64,000 bases of DNA from Candidatus Wallbacteria bacterium (GTDB lineage: Bacteria; Muiribacteriota; JAQTZZ01): positions 1-64,000 of the forward strand of contig JAQTZZ010000016.1 of assembly GCA_028687545.1 (NCBI GenBank), given 5' to 3'. The translations under genes and the position numbers were made by a program. This document shows positions 26,617 to 35,900 of this stretch, piece by piece. Each line of letters begins with the position of its first letter. Position 1 is the stretch's first letter. The notes under the pieces were generated by a model. It did no database searches and was not told the DNA's origin. It saw only the letters and a program-made list of their open reading frames with translations.

Positions 26617-27654
26617 TTAGTATTTCCCACTTCCTGCAGCCTGGCCGCTGACAATCGCTACAGACGCGCTGGCTCCGATTCTGGTAGCGCCTGCTTTCAC
26701 CATTTCCATGGCTGTCTTGGTGTCGCGCACGCCTCCTGACGCTTTTACTCCCATGTCTTCGCCTACCGCTTCCCGCATCAGGGCTACGTCCTTGACTGTG
26801 GCGCCGCCTGGCCCGAAACCGGTGGATGTCTTGACAAAATGAGCCCCTGCAGCCTTGGAAAGGGTGCAGCCGATGATTTTCTCCTCATCAGTAAGAAGTG
26901 CGGTCTCCAGGATCACTTTCACAATCCTGTCGCCCGCTGATTCGACTACGCGGCGGATGTCTTCCTCCACCAGCTTGAAATTTTTGGATTTCAGGGCTCC
27001 GATGTTGATCACCATGTCGATCTCGCCGGCCCCGTCAGTGGCAGCCCTCCTGGTTTCATAAGCTTTCACGCTGGAGGCAGTAGCTCCCAGCGGGAAACCG
27101 ATCACAGTGCAGACCCGGACCTTGGTGCCGGCAAGAATTTTGGCAGCCAGGGAAACCCAGGTGGGATTGATGCAGACTGAAGCGAACTGATATTTTTTGG
27201 CTTCTTCACACAGAGCGATCACCTGATCGGCTGTGGCATCCGGTTTAAGCAGGGTGTGGTCGATATAGGAGGCAAGATCTCCAGGGGCGGATGGAATTCC
27301 GGCACCTGACCCGATCCTGATTGCGCCAGCTTCCATCAGTTTGGAGACTGAGTTTTTGTTGTTCACGATGCAATAGCCGCAGCCTGTGCAATTTCCAGGA
27401 TCGCAGAAACTGCAGGCGCCTGAGGAAAGCAGCATTTCAGGCTTTGACGTTGCTTCCAGTGCGGCAGGTGAATGACCGGCAGAAAGGCTTTGTTCCAAGG
27501 CTTTCAATTCAGAGATAGCGTGTTCGAGAATCCCGATCTGCTTCCTGACCAGGTTCAGCTGGGGAGATTCACAACTGGGACGGGAAGTCTGGCTTCCTCC
27601 CAGCTGCTTTTTCACTTCTTCAGTGATCTTGCGGATCAGCTCGTTGTTATCCAT
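26617..27654 (-). CDS. deoC: Deoxyribose-phosphate aldolase with encapsulation peptide and Cys cluster
   Basis: 345 residues, about 120 longer than ordinary DeoC. Residues 1-20 ([20 protein letters not shown]) form an amphipathic helix typical of microcompartment cargo. Residues 21-80 are a linker with a short coiled stretch. Residues 81-95 are a five-Cys cluster (Cys 81, 84, 89, 92, 95). The aldolase barrel runs from about 129 to 343 with Schiff-base Lys275 (VKTSTGF), Asp213 (EIDMVIN) and Lys304 (VKASGG). It cleaves deoxyribose-5-P to acetaldehyde and glyceraldehyde-3-P. The ATG at 27654 has GGAG at 6 nt. It is last gene of the BMC operon. Confidence 0.93.
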
Positions 27655-27677
27655 GGGTTGCTCCAATTTTCAGCATG

Positions 27678-28013
27678 TTACTTTTCTTTTCTATGTTTTT
27701 TTTCCTTTTTGTCGTCAGTTTCTTCTGCCTCAGGCTTTTCCAGATTCGGAAGTATTGATTCCACGTCCTCATGCGGATTCGCAATCAGGCGGGCAGACAA
27801 CAGTTCGCCGACTTTCTGGGCAGCAGCGGCTCCAGCCTCGATGGCAGCCTGGCAGGCACCCACATCACCTCTGACAAGAACCGTCACCATCCCCACACCG
27901 ATCTTACGGTATCCCACCAGTGTGACATTGGCCGCCTTGGTCATGGCGTCAGCCGCTTCCACGGCTCCCACCATCCCCCTGGTTTCCACCATTCCCAATG
28001 CTCTTTTTTCCAT
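27678..28013 (-). CDS. BMC-H shell protein (PduA/EutM-like)
   Basis: 111 residues with a single BMC domain (residues 3-90): [59 protein letters not shown]-like end ([10 protein letters not shown]). The last 20 residues are a charged tail ([15 protein letters not shown]). Such proteins form hexamers that tile the facets of a bacterial microcompartment. The second of two adjacent ATGs (28013) is used because it lies 5 nt after AGGAGG. It is translationally coupled to the EutN gene upstream. The nearly identical paralogue at 34534-34818 lacks the charged tail. Confidence 0.93.
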
Positions 28014-28297
28014 CATTCCCTCCTATCTGCAATTTCTATCTTATCAACGATACCAACGATCACCGCAGAGAGCGGCACTTTATCGTCATGGAAAAGTTCG
28101 GCTGCTACAGATCCCTCATTCACCACCAGCACGGTTTCACCTGCGCCGGCTCCCACAAAATCAACTGCGATCAGTTCGCCTTTCTCGTCCTTGCCCGTTA
28201 ATGGAGAAACAGGCTGCACCAGCAAGAGTTTGTAACCATCAAAACGCGGTTCCTTGCAGGTAGACACCAAATTTCCTTTCACCCTGGCGAGGATCAC
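28013..28297 (-). CDS. BMC-P vertex protein (EutN/CcmL family), copy 3
   Basis: 94 residues of the EutN/CcmL/PduN family: [25 protein letters not shown], the conserved [18 protein letters not shown] and ending [10 protein letters not shown]. Members form pentamers that cap the vertices of the shell. The start is a GTG whose first bases overlap the stop of the preceding EutN gene (AAGTGA). Three such genes occur in this operon, as is usual for SPU-type and several other BMC loci. They differ enough that they are not recent duplicates. Confidence 0.92.
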
Positions 28298-28584
28298 TTT
28301 CCACCATCCTTTGATTTATCCAGAAGCAGGATTTCGTCCACGATTCCCAGAATCGAAGCATCAGTCGGGACAAGCGGATTTTCCATGGTGTTGCTCGCTT
28401 CCCTGGAAGTCACGTAAAAAACAAGTTCATCGGTCCCAGCGCCGATCAGATCAGTGGCGATGATCTGTTTCCCGGTTTTTTCCAGTTCTCCGTTCAGCGG
28501 CTGGATCAGGATCAGCTTATATCCATCAAGAGAAGGATATTTGTGAGATGCCACCACATTTCCGCAGACGCGAGCAAGATTCAT
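28294..28584 (-). CDS. BMC-P vertex protein (EutN/CcmL family), copy 2
   Basis: 96 residues. Family signatures: NLARVCGNVVASHKYPSL, YKLILIQPLN, DLIGAGTDELVFYVTSREA, and ILGIVDEILLLDK. It is a pentameric vertex-capping shell protein. It overlaps rpiB by 4 nt upstream and the third EutN by 4 nt downstream, so the order rpiB-eutN-eutN-bmcH is made from one coupled mRNA. The central loop (TSREASNTMENPL) is specific to this copy and may define a different surface. Confidence 0.92.
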   Translation of the reverse strand: MNLARVCGNVVASHKYPSLDGYKLILIQPLNGELEKTGKQIIATDLIGAGTDELVFYVTSREASNTMENPLVPTDASILGIVDEILLLDKSKDGGK

Positions 28585-29249
28585 TTTTTCCTCACTAATG
28601 CGATGCCTTTGTCCCTGAGAAAGTCTCTGGCCAGCGGTGTGACAATTGTACCGGATCCTACAGTCAGTTCAGATCCGGAAAAAATTTTCAGATCATCAAT
28701 TGTGATCAGCTTTTTATCCGATACATGAGCGGGTTTTCCGGATTTGGCAAGACCGAATCCAGAGATGATTTCGGAGATCAGCCGTTCGATTCCTGAAAGG
28801 CTTAATGAGAACATTTTTTCAATGGCAGTGATCTTGTCAATCCTGGCCTGATGCCTGCCACCCTCATAGCCGGTGGCAAGCCAGAGTTCCAGCAGTTCCA
28901 TGGTTTTGCCTGTCCCTGTGACCTCGCTGCCTAGAGTGAGAAGATTTGTGTCATTATGTTTGCGGCTGTTTTGTACAATGAAATAGTCATTGCCGCAGAC
29001 AGCTCTGACACCTGGAACTTTATTAGCTGCGATCGCTGAGCCGACGCCTGCGCCGTCGATCATCACACCACGTTCGCATTCACCGCCTGCCACCAGCCTG
29101 GCTACCTTTAATGCGAAATCAGGATAATCGGAATTTTGTTGCTCGAAAGCACCTACATCTATGACTTCATGACCTTTTTTTTTCAGGTTTTCCAGAACTG
29201 ATTCACGCAATTTCATGCCGCGGTGGTCGCTGCCGATCGCTATCTTCAT
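28581..29249 (-). CDS. rpiB: RpiB/LacAB-family sugar-phosphate isomerase with C-terminal extension
   Basis: 222 residues; ordinary RpiB is about 150. Residues 1-145 are the isomerase: GSDHRGMKL, DYPDFA, AANKVPGVRA, RKHNDTNLL, GYEGGRH. The usual catalytic Cys (ICGTG in E. coli) is replaced by Asp65 (MIDGAGVG), an unusual change. Residues about 146-166 (FSLSLSGIERLISEIISGFG) form an amphipathic helix that may serve as an internal encapsulation signal. Residues 180-222 (with IVTPLARD) resemble the small 'T-P-x-A-R-D' tail seen in other BMC-associated proteins. It would interconvert ribose-5-P/ribulose-5-P or a relative. SD GGAAGG. Confidence 0.88.
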   Translation of the reverse strand: MKIAIGSDHRGMKLRESVLENLKKKGHEVIDVGAFEQQNSDYPDFALKVARLVAGGECERGVMIDGAGVGSAIAANKVPGVRAVCGNDYFIVQNSRKHNDTNLLTLGSEVTGTGKTMELLELWLATGYEGGRHQARIDKITAIEKMFSLSLSGIERLISEIISGFGLAKSGKPAHVSDKKLITIDDLKIFSGSELTVGSGTIVTPLARDFLRDKGIALVRKK

Positions 29250-29269: not shown

Positions 29270-29455
29270 TTACTGTTTATTAGAGCCTTTATCCAGCTCA
29301 TTCAGCCGATACAGGTAAATTCCAAATGAGACATATCCCGAAACAATCAGAAGAGGAGAAACATGACCAAAAAGATTATCAGCCCTGTCGTTTACAAGAT
29401 ACAGGCTTGCATATCCAAGCAGCAGTAAAATAAGGGATAAGCTCAGGATCTTCAA
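29270..29455 (-). CDS. Small two-helix membrane protein in BMC operon
   Basis: 61 residues. Residues 3-20 (ILSLSLILLLLGYASLYL) and about 33-50 (SPLLIVSGYVSFGIYLY) are predicted membrane helices, and the tail is polar. It overlaps the pduT-like gene by 4 nt (ATGA) and ends 20 nt before rpiB, so it is embedded in the operon and translationally coupled. I do not recognise a family, and no membrane protein is a standard part of a BMC. It could link the operon products to the cell membrane or be a passenger. Confidence 0.6.
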   Translation of the reverse strand: MKILSLSLILLLLGYASLYLVNDRADNLFGHVSPLLIVSGYVSFGIYLYRLNELDKGSNKQ

Positions 29456-30000
29456 AACAGCACCGTTTCCAGGTCAGGATGAGGGTTAGGTATCACCACT
29501 TCCTCGATGATCAGTCCCTTTTCCTTGAATTCGGCATTCACTGCTGCGATGGAAGCTTTGCAATCTCCCACGCTGCCTGTGGCCAGTACAAAAGCCTTGC
29601 CGCCCAGCCCCTTGGCCAACCGTATTTCAATCAGATGTACCCCTGCGGCTTTGACCATTGTATCAGCCGAAAGAATGGCTCCTGTCAGGGAGAATGTCTC
29701 GACAACCGCCAGAGCTTCAAGTTTTGCCACATCAGTTGCAGCATTGATGGCCGGAAAGACTTCCTCTGCCACATTTGGAATCACGATGCTGTCCACCAGA
29801 TATTCTGATCCCACTTGTTCGCCTGCCTGGACGGAATTTTCCACTGATCCGACCTCGCCGCCGACCACAATTAAATATTTTCCCGGGCAGACCGGGCGGG
29901 AATCGATTAAAAAAACATCGGCAGCTTTGAGCATGGCATCGGTTGATTCAATACCTTTGGCAATGCTGCGCAGTTCAATTACCCCGATCGCTCTTTCCAT
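29452..30000 (-). CDS. pduT: BMC-T shell protein, PduT-like with Fe-S Cys
   Basis: 182 residues made of two fused BMC domains (about 1-90 and 94-180): AIGVIELRSIAKGIESTDAM and the second ALAVVETFSLTGAILSADTM. The trimer forms a pseudohexamer. Cys38, in SRPVCPGKYL, falls at the place of the PduT Cys38 (CPGK), which binds a [4Fe-4S] cluster at the trimer pore. The whole N-terminal half resembles PduT closely. With the PduS-like gene in the same operon, it suggests electron passage across the shell. It starts inside the 3' end of the HD-GYP gene (26-nt overlap). Confidence 0.88.
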   Translation of the reverse strand: MERAIGVIELRSIAKGIESTDAMLKAADVFLIDSRPVCPGKYLIVVGGEVGSVENSVQAGEQVGSEYLVDSIVIPNVAEEVFPAINAATDVAKLEALAVVETFSLTGAILSADTMVKAAGVHLIEIRLAKGLGGKAFVLATGSVGDCKASIAAVNAEFKEKGLIIEEVVIPNPHPDLETVLF

Positions 30001-31429
30001 TCTCGACTCCTACGTTGATCACTGAACTCTGACCGCGGACGGAGTTTTCCACATTATCCTTGGATTCCGGGTCAACCACCCAATTCCCGTCCACTATGAA
30101 CTTGTATTCATATTTTCCCTTATTTAACTCCATGTCTTTGATCCAGTATCCGTCGTTTGACAGAGTCATCGGATCCATGGTGGCGTTCCAGAAATTGAAA
30201 TCACCGATCAGGTAAACGGTTTTGGCCTGTGGTGCGAGATAGCGGAAATGGATCTTGACCTTCTCTTTGTTGCAGTATTCTGTGAACAGCTTGGTATCAC
30301 GCTCCAGCGCGGAGAGAAATGCCGTCACGATTTTGGGGTCAAACTGGGATCCGGAGTTTTTTCTGATCTCATCCACTGCGAATGCGAGCGGCAGTCCCTC
30401 ACGGTATGGCCGGTTGGAAGTCATGGCGTCAAAAGTGTCGGCAACTGCGATGATCCTTGCAAAAAGTGGGATGGTGTCACCTTTCAGGCCCTCAGGATAT
30501 CCTTTGCCGTCATACCTCTCATGGTGATAACGGATGGAGGGGATTTTGTCCTGTAGAAAAACGATTGGGTCAACTATAGATGAGCCGATGTTCGGGTGAT
30601 TCTGGATGATCTTGAACTCCATGTCAGTCAGTTTAGCCCGCTTGCCGATGATTTCTTCCGGAATTCCGATCTTGCCGATGTCATGCAGGAGAGCGCCAAA
30701 TCTGAGTTCCTTGAGTTCCTTGGAGTTGAATCCCATTGCCTTGCCTACTGAAACCGAATACTCAGTTACGCGGTGGGAGTGTCCCCGTGTGTATGCATCT
30801 TTGGCATCGATGGTATTGGCGAGAGCCCTGATGGTACTGAGATAATTCTCCTCAAGTTCTTTATAAAGCCTGGCGCTGTCAATGGCGACTGCAGCCTGGT
30901 TCGCGAAAGCCTGGAACAGCTCCACGTCTTCTTCCAGGAAAGTGTCGTTCTTTAAACTGTTGAGGATCTCCATCACGCCGATGATTTCTCCGTGTTTCAA
31001 ACGCAAAGGGACGCACATGATGGACTTGGTGATGAAGTTGCTCTGAGAGTCAGTGTTGAACCAGCGGTTGTCGGTCTTGACGTCCTTGATCAGCAGAGGT
31101 TCTCCGCTCTTGGCAACCGTACCTGCGATACCCCGCCCCAACGGGACACGGATGCTTTTAACCATATCGCCGGACTCGCCGGTGGCCACTTCAAAGACCA
31201 GTTCGCTGGTTTTTTTGTCCAGCAGAAGGACAGATCCGGCTTCGGCGTCGAGCACTTTGCAGGCTGCCTGGACGAGCAGATCGAGCAGCACATTCAGTTC
31301 AGTAATCCTGTAGATGGATTTGTTGACTTCAAGCAGAAGGTCTCGATTCTCTTTCTCTTTCTTGAGGATTTTCAGCTCATTCCTTAGTGTTTCAAGATTT
31401 TCCGGATTAGTCATTTTATCCTGTTCCAC
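29975..31429 (-). CDS. GAF - HD-GYP phosphodiesterase - CBM48 fusion protein
   Basis: 484 residues, soluble. Residues about 30-190 are a GAF sensor domain. Residues 195-385 are a complete HD-GYP domain: HSHRV, HDIGKIGIP (His249-Asp250), HHERYDGKGYPEGL (GYP at 310-312) and ADTFDAMTSNRPYR, so cyclic-di-GMP hydrolysis is expected. Residues about 390-473 are a CBM48/AMPK-type module (VYLIGDFNFWN, YEYKFIVDGNWVVDPE). The gene lies between pduS (4-nt gap) and pduT (overlap), firmly inside the BMC operon. The start may be GTG 31429 (GGAG upstream) or ATG 31414. I know of no such signalling fusion as a standard BMC component. Confidence 0.9.
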   Translation of the reverse strand: MEQDKMTNPENLETLRNELKILKKEKENRDLLLEVNKSIYRITELNVLLDLLVQAACKVLDAEAGSVLLLDKKTSELVFEVATGESGDMVKSIRVPLGRGIAGTVAKSGEPLLIKDVKTDNRWFNTDSQSNFITKSIMCVPLRLKHGEIIGVMEILNSLKNDTFLEEDVELFQAFANQAAVAIDSARLYKELEENYLSTIRALANTIDAKDAYTRGHSHRVTEYSVSVGKAMGFNSKELKELRFGALLHDIGKIGIPEEIIGKRAKLTDMEFKIIQNHPNIGSSIVDPIVFLQDKIPSIRYHHERYDGKGYPEGLKGDTIPLFARIIAVADTFDAMTSNRPYREGLPLAFAVDEIRKNSGSQFDPKIVTAFLSALERDTKLFTEYCNKEKVKIHFRYLAPQAKTVYLIGDFNFWNATMDPMTLSNDGYWIKDMELNKGKYEYKFIVDGNWVVDPESKDNVENSVRGQSSVINVGVENGKSDRGN

Positions 31430-31432
31430 TTC

Positions 31433-32743
31433 CTACTCCCCGATCCTGATATAATTTGAAGTTACTTCCATCACTGAACCTGAAATCGAAGCATGGCAGT
31501 TGCTTGATAATTTAGCTTCCGCTCTGGGCGCAGCGATTTTTTCACCGGCTTTGACTTTCTGGCCGACCCTGACAAGAGGAACTGCTGGTTCTCCTATATG
31601 CTTCGCTAAATTGATTTTCACGTTTGAAGGTTTGAAAGCAGTATCCTGCGAAGAAATCGGCAGCTGATAATATTTTTCCAGCCTGAAGCGTTTCAAAAGT
31701 CTGGAGGGAGGAATTTTCATCCATTCGCGCTGAGAGCGTACTGCATCAGGTTTTTCCTGGTGAGGGTTGGCGACCTTCTGCTTTTTGAGCTCTGATTTGA
31801 GATACTGATTGATATTTCGAGGAGAAAGTCCCATCGGGCAGCCGAATTCACAGGCTCCGCATTCACAGCAGAGGAAAGCAGCAGGAATTCTGGCTGGACT
31901 GTTGTGAACTATGCTCTGCATGATCCGGTGTGGTTCCAGAGCATGACCGAGCTGATATCTGGGACAGGTGCGGGTACAGTCCGTGCAGTTGCAGCAGACT
32001 GCAAAATCGCGTTTCAATTCACGCTGAATATTCAAGGCACGATTCAGCGAGATTGGATGGTTTTCCGGAAGTACCAGGATTCCGCTGGTGGTTTTTTCGA
32101 TCACTGAGTCCTGGCTGATCATTTTGCCCATCATCGGACCACCATCGAGCAGCACAAACTTGTCACCTATGGTTCCTCCGGCTGATTCCAGAGCTTCTCT
32201 GACTGATGTACCGATTGGATAAAAACCCACTACCGGATTCTTCACCTCACCTGTGATTGTCACTACTCTTTCCGTGACCGGAAGGTCAGAGCTGACAGCC
32301 TGGAAAACCTGATAGATGGTGGCTACATTATCGACCACAACCCCGACCTGAAGCGGAAGCCCACCCTCAGGTACGATTCTGCCGGTTACTTCATAAGTCA
32401 GAGCCTGTTCGTCTCCAGCAGGATAGAAATTACCCAGCCCGAAAACTTTCAGGCAGTCGGCTGAGGAAGCCAGCCTGGATAAAGTCTCAAATGACTCGTA
32501 CTTTTCTTTGAGGGCCAGGATTGCCGACTGGGCTCCGGTTATTTTACGGATCAATGAGAGTCCTTTCAGAATTTCCCCTGGATATTTTTTCATCAAAAAC
32601 TGATCTGACTTGAGCAGGGGTTCACACTCAGCACCGTTTCCGATCACTGTTTCCACCCGGGAGTTCAGCTTGAAATATGTAGGGAATCCGGCTCCGCCGG
32701 CTCCCACGATTCCTGCTTCCCTGATTTTCGAGAGTTCTTCCAT
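31433..32743 (-). CDS. pduS: PduS-like RnfC-family flavo/Fe-S NADH oxidoreductase
   Basis: 436 residues. The N-terminus, VGAGGAGFPTYFK and IGNGAECEPLL, is the RnfC/NuoF-like NADH/FMN-binding fold. An SLBB domain lies near 160-230 (VTITGEVKNPVVGFYPIG). Two [4Fe-4S] motifs follow: Cys 250-253-256-260 and Cys 292-295-298-302. A biotinyl-lipoyl-like C-terminal region (VPLVRVGQKVKAGEKIAAP) closes the protein. In the Pdu compartment, PduS reactivates cobalamin and is proposed to pass electrons through PduT. No cobalamin enzyme is encoded here, so NADH re-oxidation is a likelier role. Confidence 0.9.
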   Translation of the reverse strand: MEELSKIREAGIVGAGGAGFPTYFKLNSRVETVIGNGAECEPLLKSDQFLMKKYPGEILKGLSLIRKITGAQSAILALKEKYESFETLSRLASSADCLKVFGLGNFYPAGDEQALTYEVTGRIVPEGGLPLQVGVVVDNVATIYQVFQAVSSDLPVTERVVTITGEVKNPVVGFYPIGTSVREALESAGGTIGDKFVLLDGGPMMGKMISQDSVIEKTTSGILVLPENHPISLNRALNIQRELKRDFAVCCNCTDCTRTCPRYQLGHALEPHRIMQSIVHNSPARIPAAFLCCECGACEFGCPMGLSPRNINQYLKSELKKQKVANPHQEKPDAVRSQREWMKIPPSRLLKRFRLEKYYQLPISSQDTAFKPSNVKINLAKHIGEPAVPLVRVGQKVKAGEKIAAPRAEAKLSSNCHASISGSVMEVTSNYIRIGE

Positions 32744-32780: not shown

Positions 32781-34208
32781 TCAAATAATCTTGAAGTAGT
32801 CCACCAGAACACAACGGCGTTTGCGGGTAAAAGTTTTGGCGGTAGTGACACCTTCTCCAGTCGGTGTGCAGATAGTGAGCGTGGTCGGACCTTCCCCGTC
32901 AAAGCCAAGTCCATTGTATGATGAACCGTTTTTAACGAAAATAGTCGTGTTAATCTGCCTGGCCAGATCATGGAGATTCTGAATATTTTTGGAGTGCATG
33001 ATCGCGGTGTGCAGATTGCCTAATTCCACTTCGCAGGCCAGATCGATGGCTTGAGAGATGTTTGCGACCCTGACGAGCGGGAGCACCGGCATCAGAAGCT
33101 CGGTGAGCACGAACGGATGTGAGGCGGGAGTTTCGCAGAGTATCAGCCGGATCTGTGAACCTACATTGATGCCGATTTCCCGGAGAATTACCGCTGCATC
33201 CCTGCCGATGAATTTCCGGTTGGGGCCTCCCTGCGGATTCATAATCACTTTTTCCAGTTTTTCGATCTCGTCTTTTTTAAGTTCATAAGCGCCGTTGACG
33301 CGCATTACTTCTTTCAGTCTGTCTGCGATCTGGTCCACTGCGATGATCTCTTTTTCTGCGATGCAGAGTACATTGTTGTCAAAAGATGCACCGTTCACAA
33401 TGTCGCGCCCTGCTTTTTCCAGATCTGCGGTTTCATCTACAACTACAGGAGGATTTCCTGGTCCGGCTGCCATCACCTTCTTGCCGCTCTTGAAAGCTTC
33501 GTGGACGACTGCTTCGCCTCCGGTGACAACCAGGAGCCTGGCTTTTTTATGATTCATCACTGCTCTTGAAGTTTCCATGGACGGGTTTTCGATGGCTGTG
33601 ACTATGTTCAGCGGGCCGCCAACGCTCAGGGAAGCTTCGTTCATAAGTTCCACAGCGCGCAGTGATGAACGTCGGGCAGCCGGGTGATTGTTGAAGACGA
33701 CGGTATTGCCAGCAGAAACCATGCTGATACTGTTGTTGATAACTGTGGCGGCAGGATTAGTTGAAGGAGTAATGGAAGCAATCACTCCGAAGGGAGCGCA
33801 TTCTTCCAGGGTCAAACCATGATCGCCTCTGAAAATCAGGGGTGTGAGGTCTTCCAGGCCGGGAGTCCGCTCGATCGCCAGCATGTTTTTCTTGATCTTA
33901 TCGGCGACCTTGCCAAAGCCGGTTTCCTCAACCGCAGTCCTGGCAAGAAACTCCACTTCCTTCCGGCAGAAGGAACGATAGGCGGAAATGATCTCATCCC
34001 GTTTTTTTAAGGTGGTCTGGCTGAGCTGCCTGAAAGCGATTGCAGCTGCCTCGAAGGCTTCATCGACAGTCGGGAACACCCCTTTTCCGCCCGGCCGTGG
34101 TGCTGTTGATGTTTCCTGAGCCTGTGAGACAGCAGGTTCTTCACGTTTTTTCAGGCGATAAACCACCTGTTCGACGATTTTTTTTAATTCTTTTTCGTCA
34201 AGGGACAT
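32781..34208 (-). CDS. pduP: CoA-acylating aldehyde dehydrogenase (PduP/EutE-like) with encapsulation peptide
   Basis: 475 residues. Residues 1-20 (SLDEKELKKIVEQVVYRLK) are an amphipathic cargo helix, followed by a Pro-rich linker and the ALDH domain from about 45. NAD-site motif ITPSTNPAATVINNSI; catalytic Cys282 in GASFDNNVLCIAEKE; further HTAIMHSKN (the conserved His region) and PTTLTICTPTGEG. It converts acetaldehyde, CoA and NAD to acetyl-CoA and NADH, which would be the step after DeoC. It lies between eutN and pduS. The symbol is by analogy. Confidence 0.93.
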   Translation of the reverse strand: MSLDEKELKKIVEQVVYRLKKREEPAVSQAQETSTAPRPGGKGVFPTVDEAFEAAAIAFRQLSQTTLKKRDEIISAYRSFCRKEVEFLARTAVEETGFGKVADKIKKNMLAIERTPGLEDLTPLIFRGDHGLTLEECAPFGVIASITPSTNPAATVINNSISMVSAGNTVVFNNHPAARRSSLRAVELMNEASLSVGGPLNIVTAIENPSMETSRAVMNHKKARLLVVTGGEAVVHEAFKSGKKVMAAGPGNPPVVVDETADLEKAGRDIVNGASFDNNVLCIAEKEIIAVDQIADRLKEVMRVNGAYELKKDEIEKLEKVIMNPQGGPNRKFIGRDAAVILREIGINVGSQIRLILCETPASHPFVLTELLMPVLPLVRVANISQAIDLACEVELGNLHTAIMHSKNIQNLHDLARQINTTIFVKNGSSYNGLGFDGEGPTTLTICTPTGEGVTTAKTFTRKRRCVLVDYFKII

Positions 34209-34242: not shown

Positions 34243-34512
34243 CTATGTTTGCAGGTTGATGGTATCCACTATGCCGACTACGATGCAGTCCACCGGTTTT
34301 TTATCGGTCTTGACGGTCTGTCTGGCTGAGGAGCCGCTTACAAGCAGCACTGTCTCAGCTGCACCCGCCCCTACCGTATCCACTGCTATATGGAATTTTC
34401 CAGTGGGTTTCAGTTCGATCGTCAATTCCTCGACGACCAGGAATTTGAAACCGACAAGGTTAACATCTTTCCTGGTGGCGACAACAGTGCCACAGATTTT
34501 TCCAAGAAGCAT
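34243..34512 (-). CDS. BMC-P vertex protein (EutN/CcmL family), copy 1
   Basis: 89 residues: MLLGKICGTVVATRKDVNL, FKFLVVEELT, DTVGAGAAETVLLVSGSSARQ, and the ending IVGIVDTINLQT. It is closest of the three copies to the canonical EutN length and form. It is a pentameric shell vertex protein. It sits between bmcH (21-nt gap) and pduP (34-nt gap), the two short gaps carrying SD sequences. Function at the vertex is a family inference. Confidence 0.93.
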   Translation of the reverse strand: MLLGKICGTVVATRKDVNLVGFKFLVVEELTIELKPTGKFHIAVDTVGAGAAETVLLVSGSSARQTVKTDKKPVDCIVVGIVDTINLQT

Positions 34513-34533: not shown

Positions 34534-34818
34534 TTACTTTTCGCCTTTACCGATCGGCAGCACATCTTCGAGACTGTCGTGCGGTCTCGGGATCACATGG
34601 ACAGACACCAGTTCTCCGACTTTCTGGGCGGCTGCTGCGCCGGCGTCGGTCGCGGCTTTCACTGCAGCGACATCGCCCCGCACCATGGCAGTAACATAGC
34701 CGGAACCGATCTTTTCCCAGCTCACCAGTCTCACATTGGCGGCTTTTACCATGGCGTCTGCGGCTTCAATCATGGCGACAAGCCCTTTGGTTTCGATCAT
34801 TCCCAAAGCGTCTTTCAT
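34534..34818 (-). CDS. BMC-H shell protein (PduA/EutM-like)
   Basis: 94 residues, one BMC domain, no tail: [79 protein letters not shown]. It matches canonical PduA/EutM-type hexamer formers, including the KIGSG pore loop. The AGGAGG SD lies directly upstream. The gap upstream of it is occupied by the inverted-repeat element 34867-35140, which separates it from pduL. If that element ends transcription, this would be the true first gene of the main BMC transcript. Confidence 0.95.
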
Positions 34819-35202: not shown

Positions 35203-35856
35203 TTAATTAACGATTTCAACCAGTTCACCGCCTTTGATCAGTGCGGAGTTACCCTCGTCGGTGTCGACATGCATCTCTAAGGCAAATTTATCAGATACTC
35301 TGCAGAGTACTTCTCCGAATATCAGAGCTCTGCCTCCGAATGTTCTCACCCTTACTTTCTGTTTATCTGTCACTCCCAGCCGCATGGCATCCCGAACCGT
35401 AAAATGGATATGTCTGCAGGCGATGATCACTCCCTCTTTCAGGGTCACAGCTCCGGCAGGTCCGACAATCACCAGCTTTTCCGATCCGGCAAGGTCGCCT
35501 GAATCGCGGACAGGAGGGTTAATGCCTAGAACATAACTATCGGTTCTGGAGACTTCTACTTGAGTCTGCACTCTATATGGACCAAGAATCCGGACTTTCT
35601 GGAAAATGCCCTTGCAACCGATCAGAGTTACTACTTCATTGGCAGCATATTGTCCGGGTTGCGACAGGTCCTTCTGCTTTGTGAGCAGTGCCTTGTCGCC
35701 GAACAGGATCTTGAAATCAGCTTCTGAAACATGCAGGTGACGGTTGGAAACCGCGATCGGCAGCAGTTTGCTTTTATCCGCAGCTTCATTTCCGCCTAAC
35801 GAATAGTTTTTAAGGATTTCGGCAGTCACTTTCTGAACGAGTTCTTCATTGTTCAT
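35203..35856 (-). CDS. pduL: PduL-type phosphotransacylase with encapsulation peptide
   Basis: 217 residues. The N-terminal helix NNEELVQKVTAEILKNYSL is the cargo signal usual in BMC PduL. The two PduL barrels carry the metal-binding His motifs SNRHLHVSEADFKILFG and CRHIHFTVRDAMRLGV, plus LGPYRVQTQVEVSRTD. It converts acetyl-CoA and phosphate to acetyl phosphate and recycles CoA inside the shell. The ATG at 35856 follows GGGAGATG; an earlier in-frame ATG at 35871 is less well placed. It is first of the BMC genes, 29 nt after the PepSY-like gene but separated from the shell genes by the inverted-repeat element. Confidence 0.94.
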   Translation of the reverse strand: MNNEELVQKVTAEILKNYSLGGNEAADKSKLLPIAVSNRHLHVSEADFKILFGDKALLTKQKDLSQPGQYAANEVVTLIGCKGIFQKVRILGPYRVQTQVEVSRTDSYVLGINPPVRDSGDLAGSEKLVIVGPAGAVTLKEGVIIACRHIHFTVRDAMRLGVTDKQKVRVRTFGGRALIFGEVLCRVSDKFALEMHVDTDEGNSALIKGGELVEIVN

Positions 35857-35900
35857 GACACATCTCCCCATTTTGTTTACAAAACTTGTATTGAATAGTT

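Follow-up and report, generated by a model that had tools for sequence, protein, structure and literature searches.

The RpiB-family protein P0001, encoded in a window of 64,000 nucleotides of Candidatus Wallbacteria DNA (contig JAQTZZ010000016.1), belongs, with a probability that we put at about 0.95, to a distinct and conserved class of the RpiB/LacAB family that belongs with microcompartments of the sugar-phosphate-utilisation (SPU) type and is genetically tied to the aldolase DeoC. We refer to this class as D-type, after the Asp that it carries at position 65, and distinguish it from the C-type, which has the Cys at this position, and from the mycobacterial-like E-type, which uses a Glu base at position 71. 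Read from the sequence, the two changes at residues 65 and 67 of the D-type would remove the known machinery of C1-C2 isomerisation and leave in place the His and Arg residues of ring opening and phosphate binding.

Membership of the window protein in the RpiB/LacAB family is evident from its match to PF02502 (163.8 bits, gathering score 24.7), and it also passes the cut-offs of TIGR01120, the RpiB model (155.6 bits, cut-off 138.65), and of NF004051 (163.5 bits, cut-off 135). Assignment to LacA, LacB, DerI or RPI_actino was ruled out, all scores against these curated models being under cut-off. The closest solved structure was C. thermocellum RpiB 3he8, which the AF2 model matches in Foldseek with an rmsd of 0.7 at 49% identity. 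The motif ICGTG of the E. coli (1nn4) and C. thermocellum (3he8) enzymes aligns without gaps to IDGAG in the window protein, and this confirms what the initial annotation had claimed, that Asp65 stands in place of the catalytic Cys of E. coli RpiB and that the mycobacterial Glu base is missing as well, position 71 being Ser. The same annotation had named a shifted alignment as grounds for giving up its reading; such a shift, or a sequencing oddity, is ruled out by the gap-free motif and its recurrence in 125 sequences. Its statement that the other active-site residues remain is correct for Asp8, His9, Tyr42, His98, Asn99, Arg132 and Arg136, but not for residue 67, where Thr or Ser has become Ala, nor for Arg109, which contacts the phosphate in other RpiBs (literature numbering) and is Glu here. 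The annotation was silent on Ala67, the second active-site change, and gave no strand; the gene lies on the minus strand. Judged by what an RpiB would be expected to have, the window protein lacks both a Cys at 65 and a Glu at 71, lacks the Ser or Thr at 67 for O2-to-O1 proton transfer, and possesses the ring-opening His98 and the phosphate residues His9, Arg132 and Arg136, with Arg109 missing.

A survey of relatives, of the kind that the annotation had called for, identified Asp65 as a clade feature. The 243 relatives classified, a set enriched for the D-type and thus no random sample, fall into 125 D-type, 114 C-type and 4 E-type sequences with no intermediates, and positions 65, 67, 71 and 94 are all class-specific among them, the D-type signature being D65-G-[A/V]67-G-x-G-S71 together with N94. 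His9, Tyr42, Ser71, Asn94, His98, Asn99, Arg132 and Arg136 are present in 125/125 D-type sequences and Asp8 in 124. Residue 67 is Ser or Thr in all 118 C- plus E-type sequences and in 0/125 of the D-type, and Arg109 is retained in 34/125 D-type as against 97/114 C-type sequences. A degenerate or dead gene was ruled out as an explanation, since 9 of the 12 active-site positions scored are invariant throughout the D-type. One tailed D-type protein (L015, G003:C104:48177-48863) carries Tyr at the near-invariant Asp8 position.

The division was just as clear in the phylum of the window, where a search with the window protein located 68 RpiB-family places in 39 genomes, all of which could be classified: 32 are D-type, 36 are C-type (with C, S or T, M/I/V and L/F/M/Y at residues 65, 67, 71 and 94) and none is in between. 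In a scan of species genomes with the D-type alignment there were at least 589 matching stretches, and 550 of those listed encode relatives; the best 80 of these 550 have D-A-S-N in 80/80, a result that speaks to breadth and not to frequency, the D motif having been one of two patterns in the scan. By record titles, the D-type extends to Chloroflexota, Acidobacteriota, Planctomycetota, Bacteroidota/Ignavibacteria, Spirochaetota, Atribacteria, Eisenbacteria, KSB1 and others. Isolates with a D-type protein include Levilinea saccharolytica (L084) and Candidatus Uabimicrobium amorphum (L098). A single origin of the class is likely and is not rejected by trees: the D-type needs 2 changes on a tree of 173 sequences, and on a tree of 88 sequences, from which L235 and L238 were left out, it occupies one side of a branch of weak support (51/36). 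One sequence (L240) was left unaligned, and the places G063:C4 and G079:C165 lie outside the classified set.

The gene for the window protein is part of a minus-strand run that encodes PduL, BMC-H, EutN, aldehyde dehydrogenase, RnfC/PduS, GAF-HD and tandem-domain BMC proteins, RpiB, two EutN proteins, BMC-H and DeoC (Table 1). The combination of DeoC with a PF02502 protein is given as the signature of SPU microcompartments in the accounts of Axen 2014 (PMC4207490) and Sutter 2021 (PMC8217296). The window holds a PF01791 aldolase, a PF02502 protein, shell genes and an aldehyde dehydrogenase, and its locus is an SPU microcompartment with DeoC. In the window DeoC the motifs EIDMVI, KTSTGF and KASGGVR, which contain the catalytic residues of the aldolase family, are conserved. 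Its N-terminal extension has a group of closely spaced Cys at about residues 86-102 ([15 protein letters not shown]), and a loose regular expression detected such clusters in the first 160 residues of 28/63 DeoC ORFs of D-type loci (for example CPGCxQRCxQTC and CDPCxACGLC); a metal or Fe-S site is possible. A separate observation is that the GAF-HD protein with its CBM48-type domain sits within the shell operon.

Table 1. Features of the D-type gene and its neighbours in the window
Feature	Position	Strand	Basis
DeoC, deoxyribose-phosphate aldolase, N-terminal extension with Cys cluster	26617..27666	-	TIGR00126; aldolase motifs
BMC-H shell protein	27678..28016	-	domain models
EutN/CcmL vertex protein	28013..28297	-	domain models
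EutN/CcmL vertex protein, overlaps end of RpiB gene	28294..28584	-	domain models
D-type RpiB-family gene (P0001), 222 aa	28581..29249, stop codon included	-	TIGR01120/NF004051/PF02502 matches
TPxARD module, residues 181-221	28587..28709	-	module profile, AF2 model
Encapsulation-type helix, residues 151-166	28752..28799	-	AF2 model; similar helices in relatives (by eye)
RpiB/LacAB core, residues 1-147	28809..29249	-	domain matches; Foldseek to 3he8
Asn94 codon (D-type signature; one helical turn before His98)	28968..28970	-	
Ser71 codon (E-type: Glu base; C-type: Met, Ala, Ile, Val or Thr)	29037..29039	-	
Ala67 codon (Ser/Thr in C- and E-type)	29049..29051	-	
Asp65 codon (Cys in C-type RpiB)	29055..29057	-	
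Tandem-domain BMC shell protein (PduT-like by model match)	29452..30000	-	
GAF-HD protein (c-di-GMP phosphodiesterase-like HD), C-terminal AMPK1_CBM/CBM48 glycogen-binding-type domain	29975-31429	-	
RnfC/PduS-like protein	31433..32743	-	domain models
Aldehyde dehydrogenase, microcompartment type	32781..34208	-	NF011927
EutN/CcmL vertex protein	34243..34512	-	model match
BMC-H shell protein (EutM-like)	34534..34818	-	domain models
PduL phosphotransacylase	35203..35871	-	PF06130

Association with shell genes distinguishes the D-type from the C-type throughout the phylum of the window, where 30/32 D-type but only 2/36 C-type genes have EutN on their own contig at a distance of no more than 4.2 kb (Fisher p 1.5e-14, relatedness not corrected for); the two D-type exceptions are on a 5.1-kb contig (L012) and at a contig start (L028). 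Counted by genome, the D-type is present in 32/35 EutN-positive and 0/4 EutN-negative members of the phylum, and the EutN-positive genomes without it (G006, G011 and G023) are 75-84% complete. An unselected draw of 41 Chloroflexota genomes, counted without a weak match (L186) and a 34-residue fragment (L187), had the D-type in 4/5 EutN-positive and 0/36 EutN-negative genomes, the EutN-positive G090 having the C-type only; all four D-type genes of this draw are 1.4-5.4 kb from EutN, and a contig common to EutN and C- or E-type genes was found in 0/33. Further D-type genomes, which were chosen for the D-type gene and are no random sample, have EutN in 48/48. At 80 D-type loci, many of them on short contigs, the fetched flank contains a shell gene in 45, and the remaining 35 comprise 29 in the 48 EutN-positive genomes and 6 unchecked. 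In family f7 of the phylum, a divergent C-type RpiB (L146, G033:C31:181042-181464; L148, G032:C39:29993-30427) lies ~4 kb from EutN, and there is also a D-type with Val67.

Of the 80 loci, again with many short contigs, 61 have DeoC in the fetched flank; it occurs there together with shell genes in 40 and without them in 21, whereas 5 flanks have shell genes alone and 14 have neither. For the 19 loci without DeoC in the flank, 17 genomes were checked, and DeoC was detected elsewhere in 13 and not found in 4. The two genes can also be joined in RpiB-DeoC fusions (L053, 472 aa; L102, 446 aa), as is reported for Marinimicrobia in PMC4207490. Thymidine phosphorylase (DeoA) follows DeoC at 6/80 loci, and at 3/80 there is a phosphorylase of the uridine/purine type, for a total of 9/80. 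The metabolic side of the initial suggestion that the enzyme might act on a deoxy sugar thus finds support in DeoC, the phosphorylases and the fusions; its other side, 2-deoxyribose-5-phosphate (dR5P) as the substrate of an isomerase, has to be abandoned, because dR5P is without a C2 hydroxyl and is no substrate for aldose-ketose isomerisation. A role with the deoxy sugar must for this reason lie in a different reaction, ring opening for instance. Two further observations concern the aldolases of these loci: at one of the 80, an SPU-type locus of Spirochaetales, DeoC is followed by a class II aldolase of the fuculose-phosphate type (L060:11322-12056, plus strand), and three genomes of the phylum have, immediately next to their strong DeoC, a second, weak DeoC-like match of 44-60 bits (G037:C5:43453-43824, G038:C649:7100-7477 and G003:C104:45673-46050).

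The tail of ~75 residues described in the initial annotation, with an amphipathic helix and a TPLARD segment, reappears in the AF2 model (54 sequences, mean pLDDT 91.7) as a helix at residues 151-166 followed by a loose linker and, at residues 181-221, the TPLARD segment as a small folded module. A profile of this module was matched in 39/80 relatives, at the N-terminus in 34 and at the C-terminus in 5. Members of the module set match TIGR02536 (15/16), EutQ (5/16) and PduM (3/16), all microcompartment-linked families by name, with weak scores far under the whole-protein cut-offs, and a profile search of the PDB gave weak matches to E2 peripheral-domain proteins (best E 0.075). Cargo-like helices recur at the N- or C-terminus of relatives, as read by eye, and in other phyla the tail-type pieces are N-terminal; a regular expression for encapsulation helices was too strict (6/80 matches), and the helix call is a reading by eye together with the model. 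The idea of a tail of the cargo type is upheld by the encapsulation-type helix and by a module with weak but recurrent matches to EutQ, PduM and TIGR02536, and we infer that the window RpiB is cargo, delivered by the tail helix and the TPxARD module. Part of the phylum has tailless forms of 149 aa, and membership of the D-type class therefore does not depend on the tail. At another locus, a 164-aa protein that starts with a TPxARD module and has no NCBIfam match adjoins shell genes (L046:7199-7693, plus strand).

Most genomes with a D-type gene are also equipped with another ribose-5-phosphate isomerase (Rpi): 66/80 have a separate C- or E-type RpiB, and among the 14 without a canonical RpiB there are 6 with RpiA and 8 with neither. 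Rpe was found in 14/14 genomes tested, including all eight without other Rpi. Four of five other genomes from the order of G069 and G073 carry both D- and C-type genes, and same-genus sisters of G029 have RpiA, which suggests that the missing Rpi in some of the D-only genomes reflects assembly gaps or recent loss.

The reading that we tentatively place first, at rather less than even odds, is that the D-type protein acts in the shell on dR5P and opens its furanose ring for DeoC, as a putative 'openase'. The substrate inside the shell would be dR5P, which is also that of DeoC; the ring oxygen would be protonated by His98, the O1 proton would be taken by Asp65, placed at O1, or by His133, and the open aldehyde would be released for the lysine of DeoC, C1-C2 isomerisation having been given up on a substrate without O2. 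In RpiB the Cys is described as taking the C2 proton (PMC4783025) and residue Thr67 as moving a proton from O2 to O1 (PMC3755991, PMC4783025), and in LacAB the C65A protein is inactive and T67A about 20-fold slower (PMC3755991). Such a transfer is not needed by dR5P, and an O2-less substrate would directly explain the loss at residue 67. Free dR5P is given as 99.8% furanose, and the DERA lysine needs the open form (PMC5975929, PMC8403123); YhcH, for which opening of Neu5Ac on behalf of its aldolase is experimentally shown (PMC8141875), sets a precedent for ring opening in the service of an aldolase. The retained ring-opening and phosphate residues, the ties to EutN and DeoC with the two fusions, the nucleoside phosphorylases and the separate canonical Rpi in most carriers also count for ring opening. 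The need for an openase is called into question by the uncatalysed opening of ribose-5-P, which is put at 40-100 per second and not expected to limit DERA (PMC5975929). The Ser71 hydroxyl, at the base position of the M. tuberculosis enzyme (MtRpiB), could replace Thr67 and so allow isomerisation; Asp65 is invariant where drift might be expected if ring opening alone mattered, to which a direct role at O1 is our proposed answer. The 14/80 loci with neither DeoC nor shell genes in the flank, the 4/17 checked genomes without DeoC and the 8/80 genomes without other Rpi likewise argue against ring opening.

Only thinly behind ring opening we would place the possibility that the D-type is a ribose-5-P isomerase in which Asp65 is the general base and Ser71 the proton shuttle, an organelle copy that clears ribose-5-P entering with dR5P; a reactive Cys may have been avoided as the lumen fills with acetaldehyde. 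The aldehyde dehydrogenase encoded in this locus has a Cys as its catalytic residue, from which it appears that Cys is not barred from the lumen. The rest of the binding pocket is conserved, the RpiB cut-off of TIGR01120 is passed, and the genomes with Rpe but without other Rpi are what such an isomerase would lead one to expect, but canonical RpiB in 66 of the carriers and RpiA in 6 more speak against it, as do the signs that the missing-Rpi cases are at least partly incomplete assemblies. Carboxylate bases have precedents in Glu75 of MtRpiB (PMC3755991) and in the acidic residues of RpiA (PMC4783025), and high reactivity is described for the Cys of RpiB (PMC3212906); the 20-fold cost of losing the 67 hydroxyl in LacAB weighs on the other side, and isomerisation of ribose-5-P supplies no clear reason for the tight coupling or fusion to DeoC.

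It seems unlikely that the D-type is an aldose-ketose isomerase for some other sugar phosphate, for example one that makes dihydroxyacetone-P from glyceraldehyde-3-P and would thereby draw the DeoC reaction forward, or one for a pentose-P other than that of ribose. Triosephosphate isomerase typically relies on an acidic residue as its base, and the frequent loss of Arg109 would agree with a changed substrate; the equilibrium is reported to lie on the side of dR5P synthesis (K 5000 per M, PMC8403123), so that removal of glyceraldehyde-3-P would help, and a triosephosphate isomerase gene is reported in an SPU locus of Atribacteria (PMC4207490). Against this, the presence of His9, Arg132 and Arg136 in every D-type sequence suggests that the phosphate is bound at the position of five-carbon substrates. 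Least probable of all, in our estimation, is a scaffold, non-catalytic or regulatory, through which DeoC would enter the shell: cargo-type appendages and fusions to DeoC would suit it, but the invariance of most active-site positions would not, and the DeoC proteins bear N-terminal extensions of their own.

The broader proposal that SPU microcompartments possess an RpiB-derived openase devoted to dR5P, with Asp65/Ser71/Asn94 as a new catalytic class, is more tentative than ring opening by the D-type as such. Were it true, a textbook isomerase family would include a new catalytic class, routinely annotated as ribose-5-phosphate isomerase, which only speeds a spontaneous interconversion beside an enzyme that uses the rare form, much in the way that carboxysomes pair carbonic anhydrase with Rubisco. 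The usual name may not describe the role of the D-type, and a curated model that calls the protein RpiB though the known catalytic base is gone is a warning in itself. As a separate catalytic class, the SPU-linked enzyme has a role that becomes directly testable, and its four residues are a marker for SPU loci in sequence data.

The SPU loci, their RpiB-family gene and a presumed link to DNA breakdown were already known, and the window locus shares with the SPU microcompartments of Axen 2014 and Sutter 2021 its DeoC, RpiB-family protein, aldehyde dehydrogenase, PduL and shell genes. The portions of these two papers that deal with the protein (PMC4207490, PMC8217296) present it as an RpiB isomerising ribose-5-P and mention no active-site change; no mention of the Asp class was found in passages of openly available papers on microcompartment RpiB, on deoxyribose microcompartments (from 2021) or on the RpiB cysteine and ring opening. 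With EutQ, PduM and TIGR02536 the window protein would have the short TPxARD-type module alone in common. YhcH, the Neu5Ac anomerase/openase, resembles it in opening a sugar for an aldolase, a role that is experimentally shown there and proposed here, and differs in belonging to the DUF386 family and in its Zn. LacAB galactose-6-phosphate isomerase has the same family and fold, but the window protein scores far under the LacA and LacB cut-offs, and LacB, as described in PMC3755991, keeps Cys65 and Thr67. RpiB of the M. tuberculosis type is of the same family and likewise has an active-site carboxylate, but the acid of the window protein is at 65 instead of 71, and its residue 67 is Ala instead of Ser. 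From the RpiBs of E. coli and C. thermocellum (3he8), with which it shares the fold and the residues Asp8, His9, Tyr42, His98, Asn99, Arg132 and Arg136, the window protein is set apart by Asp for Cys65, Ala for Thr/Ser67, Ser71, Asn94, the link to an organelle and the added tail.
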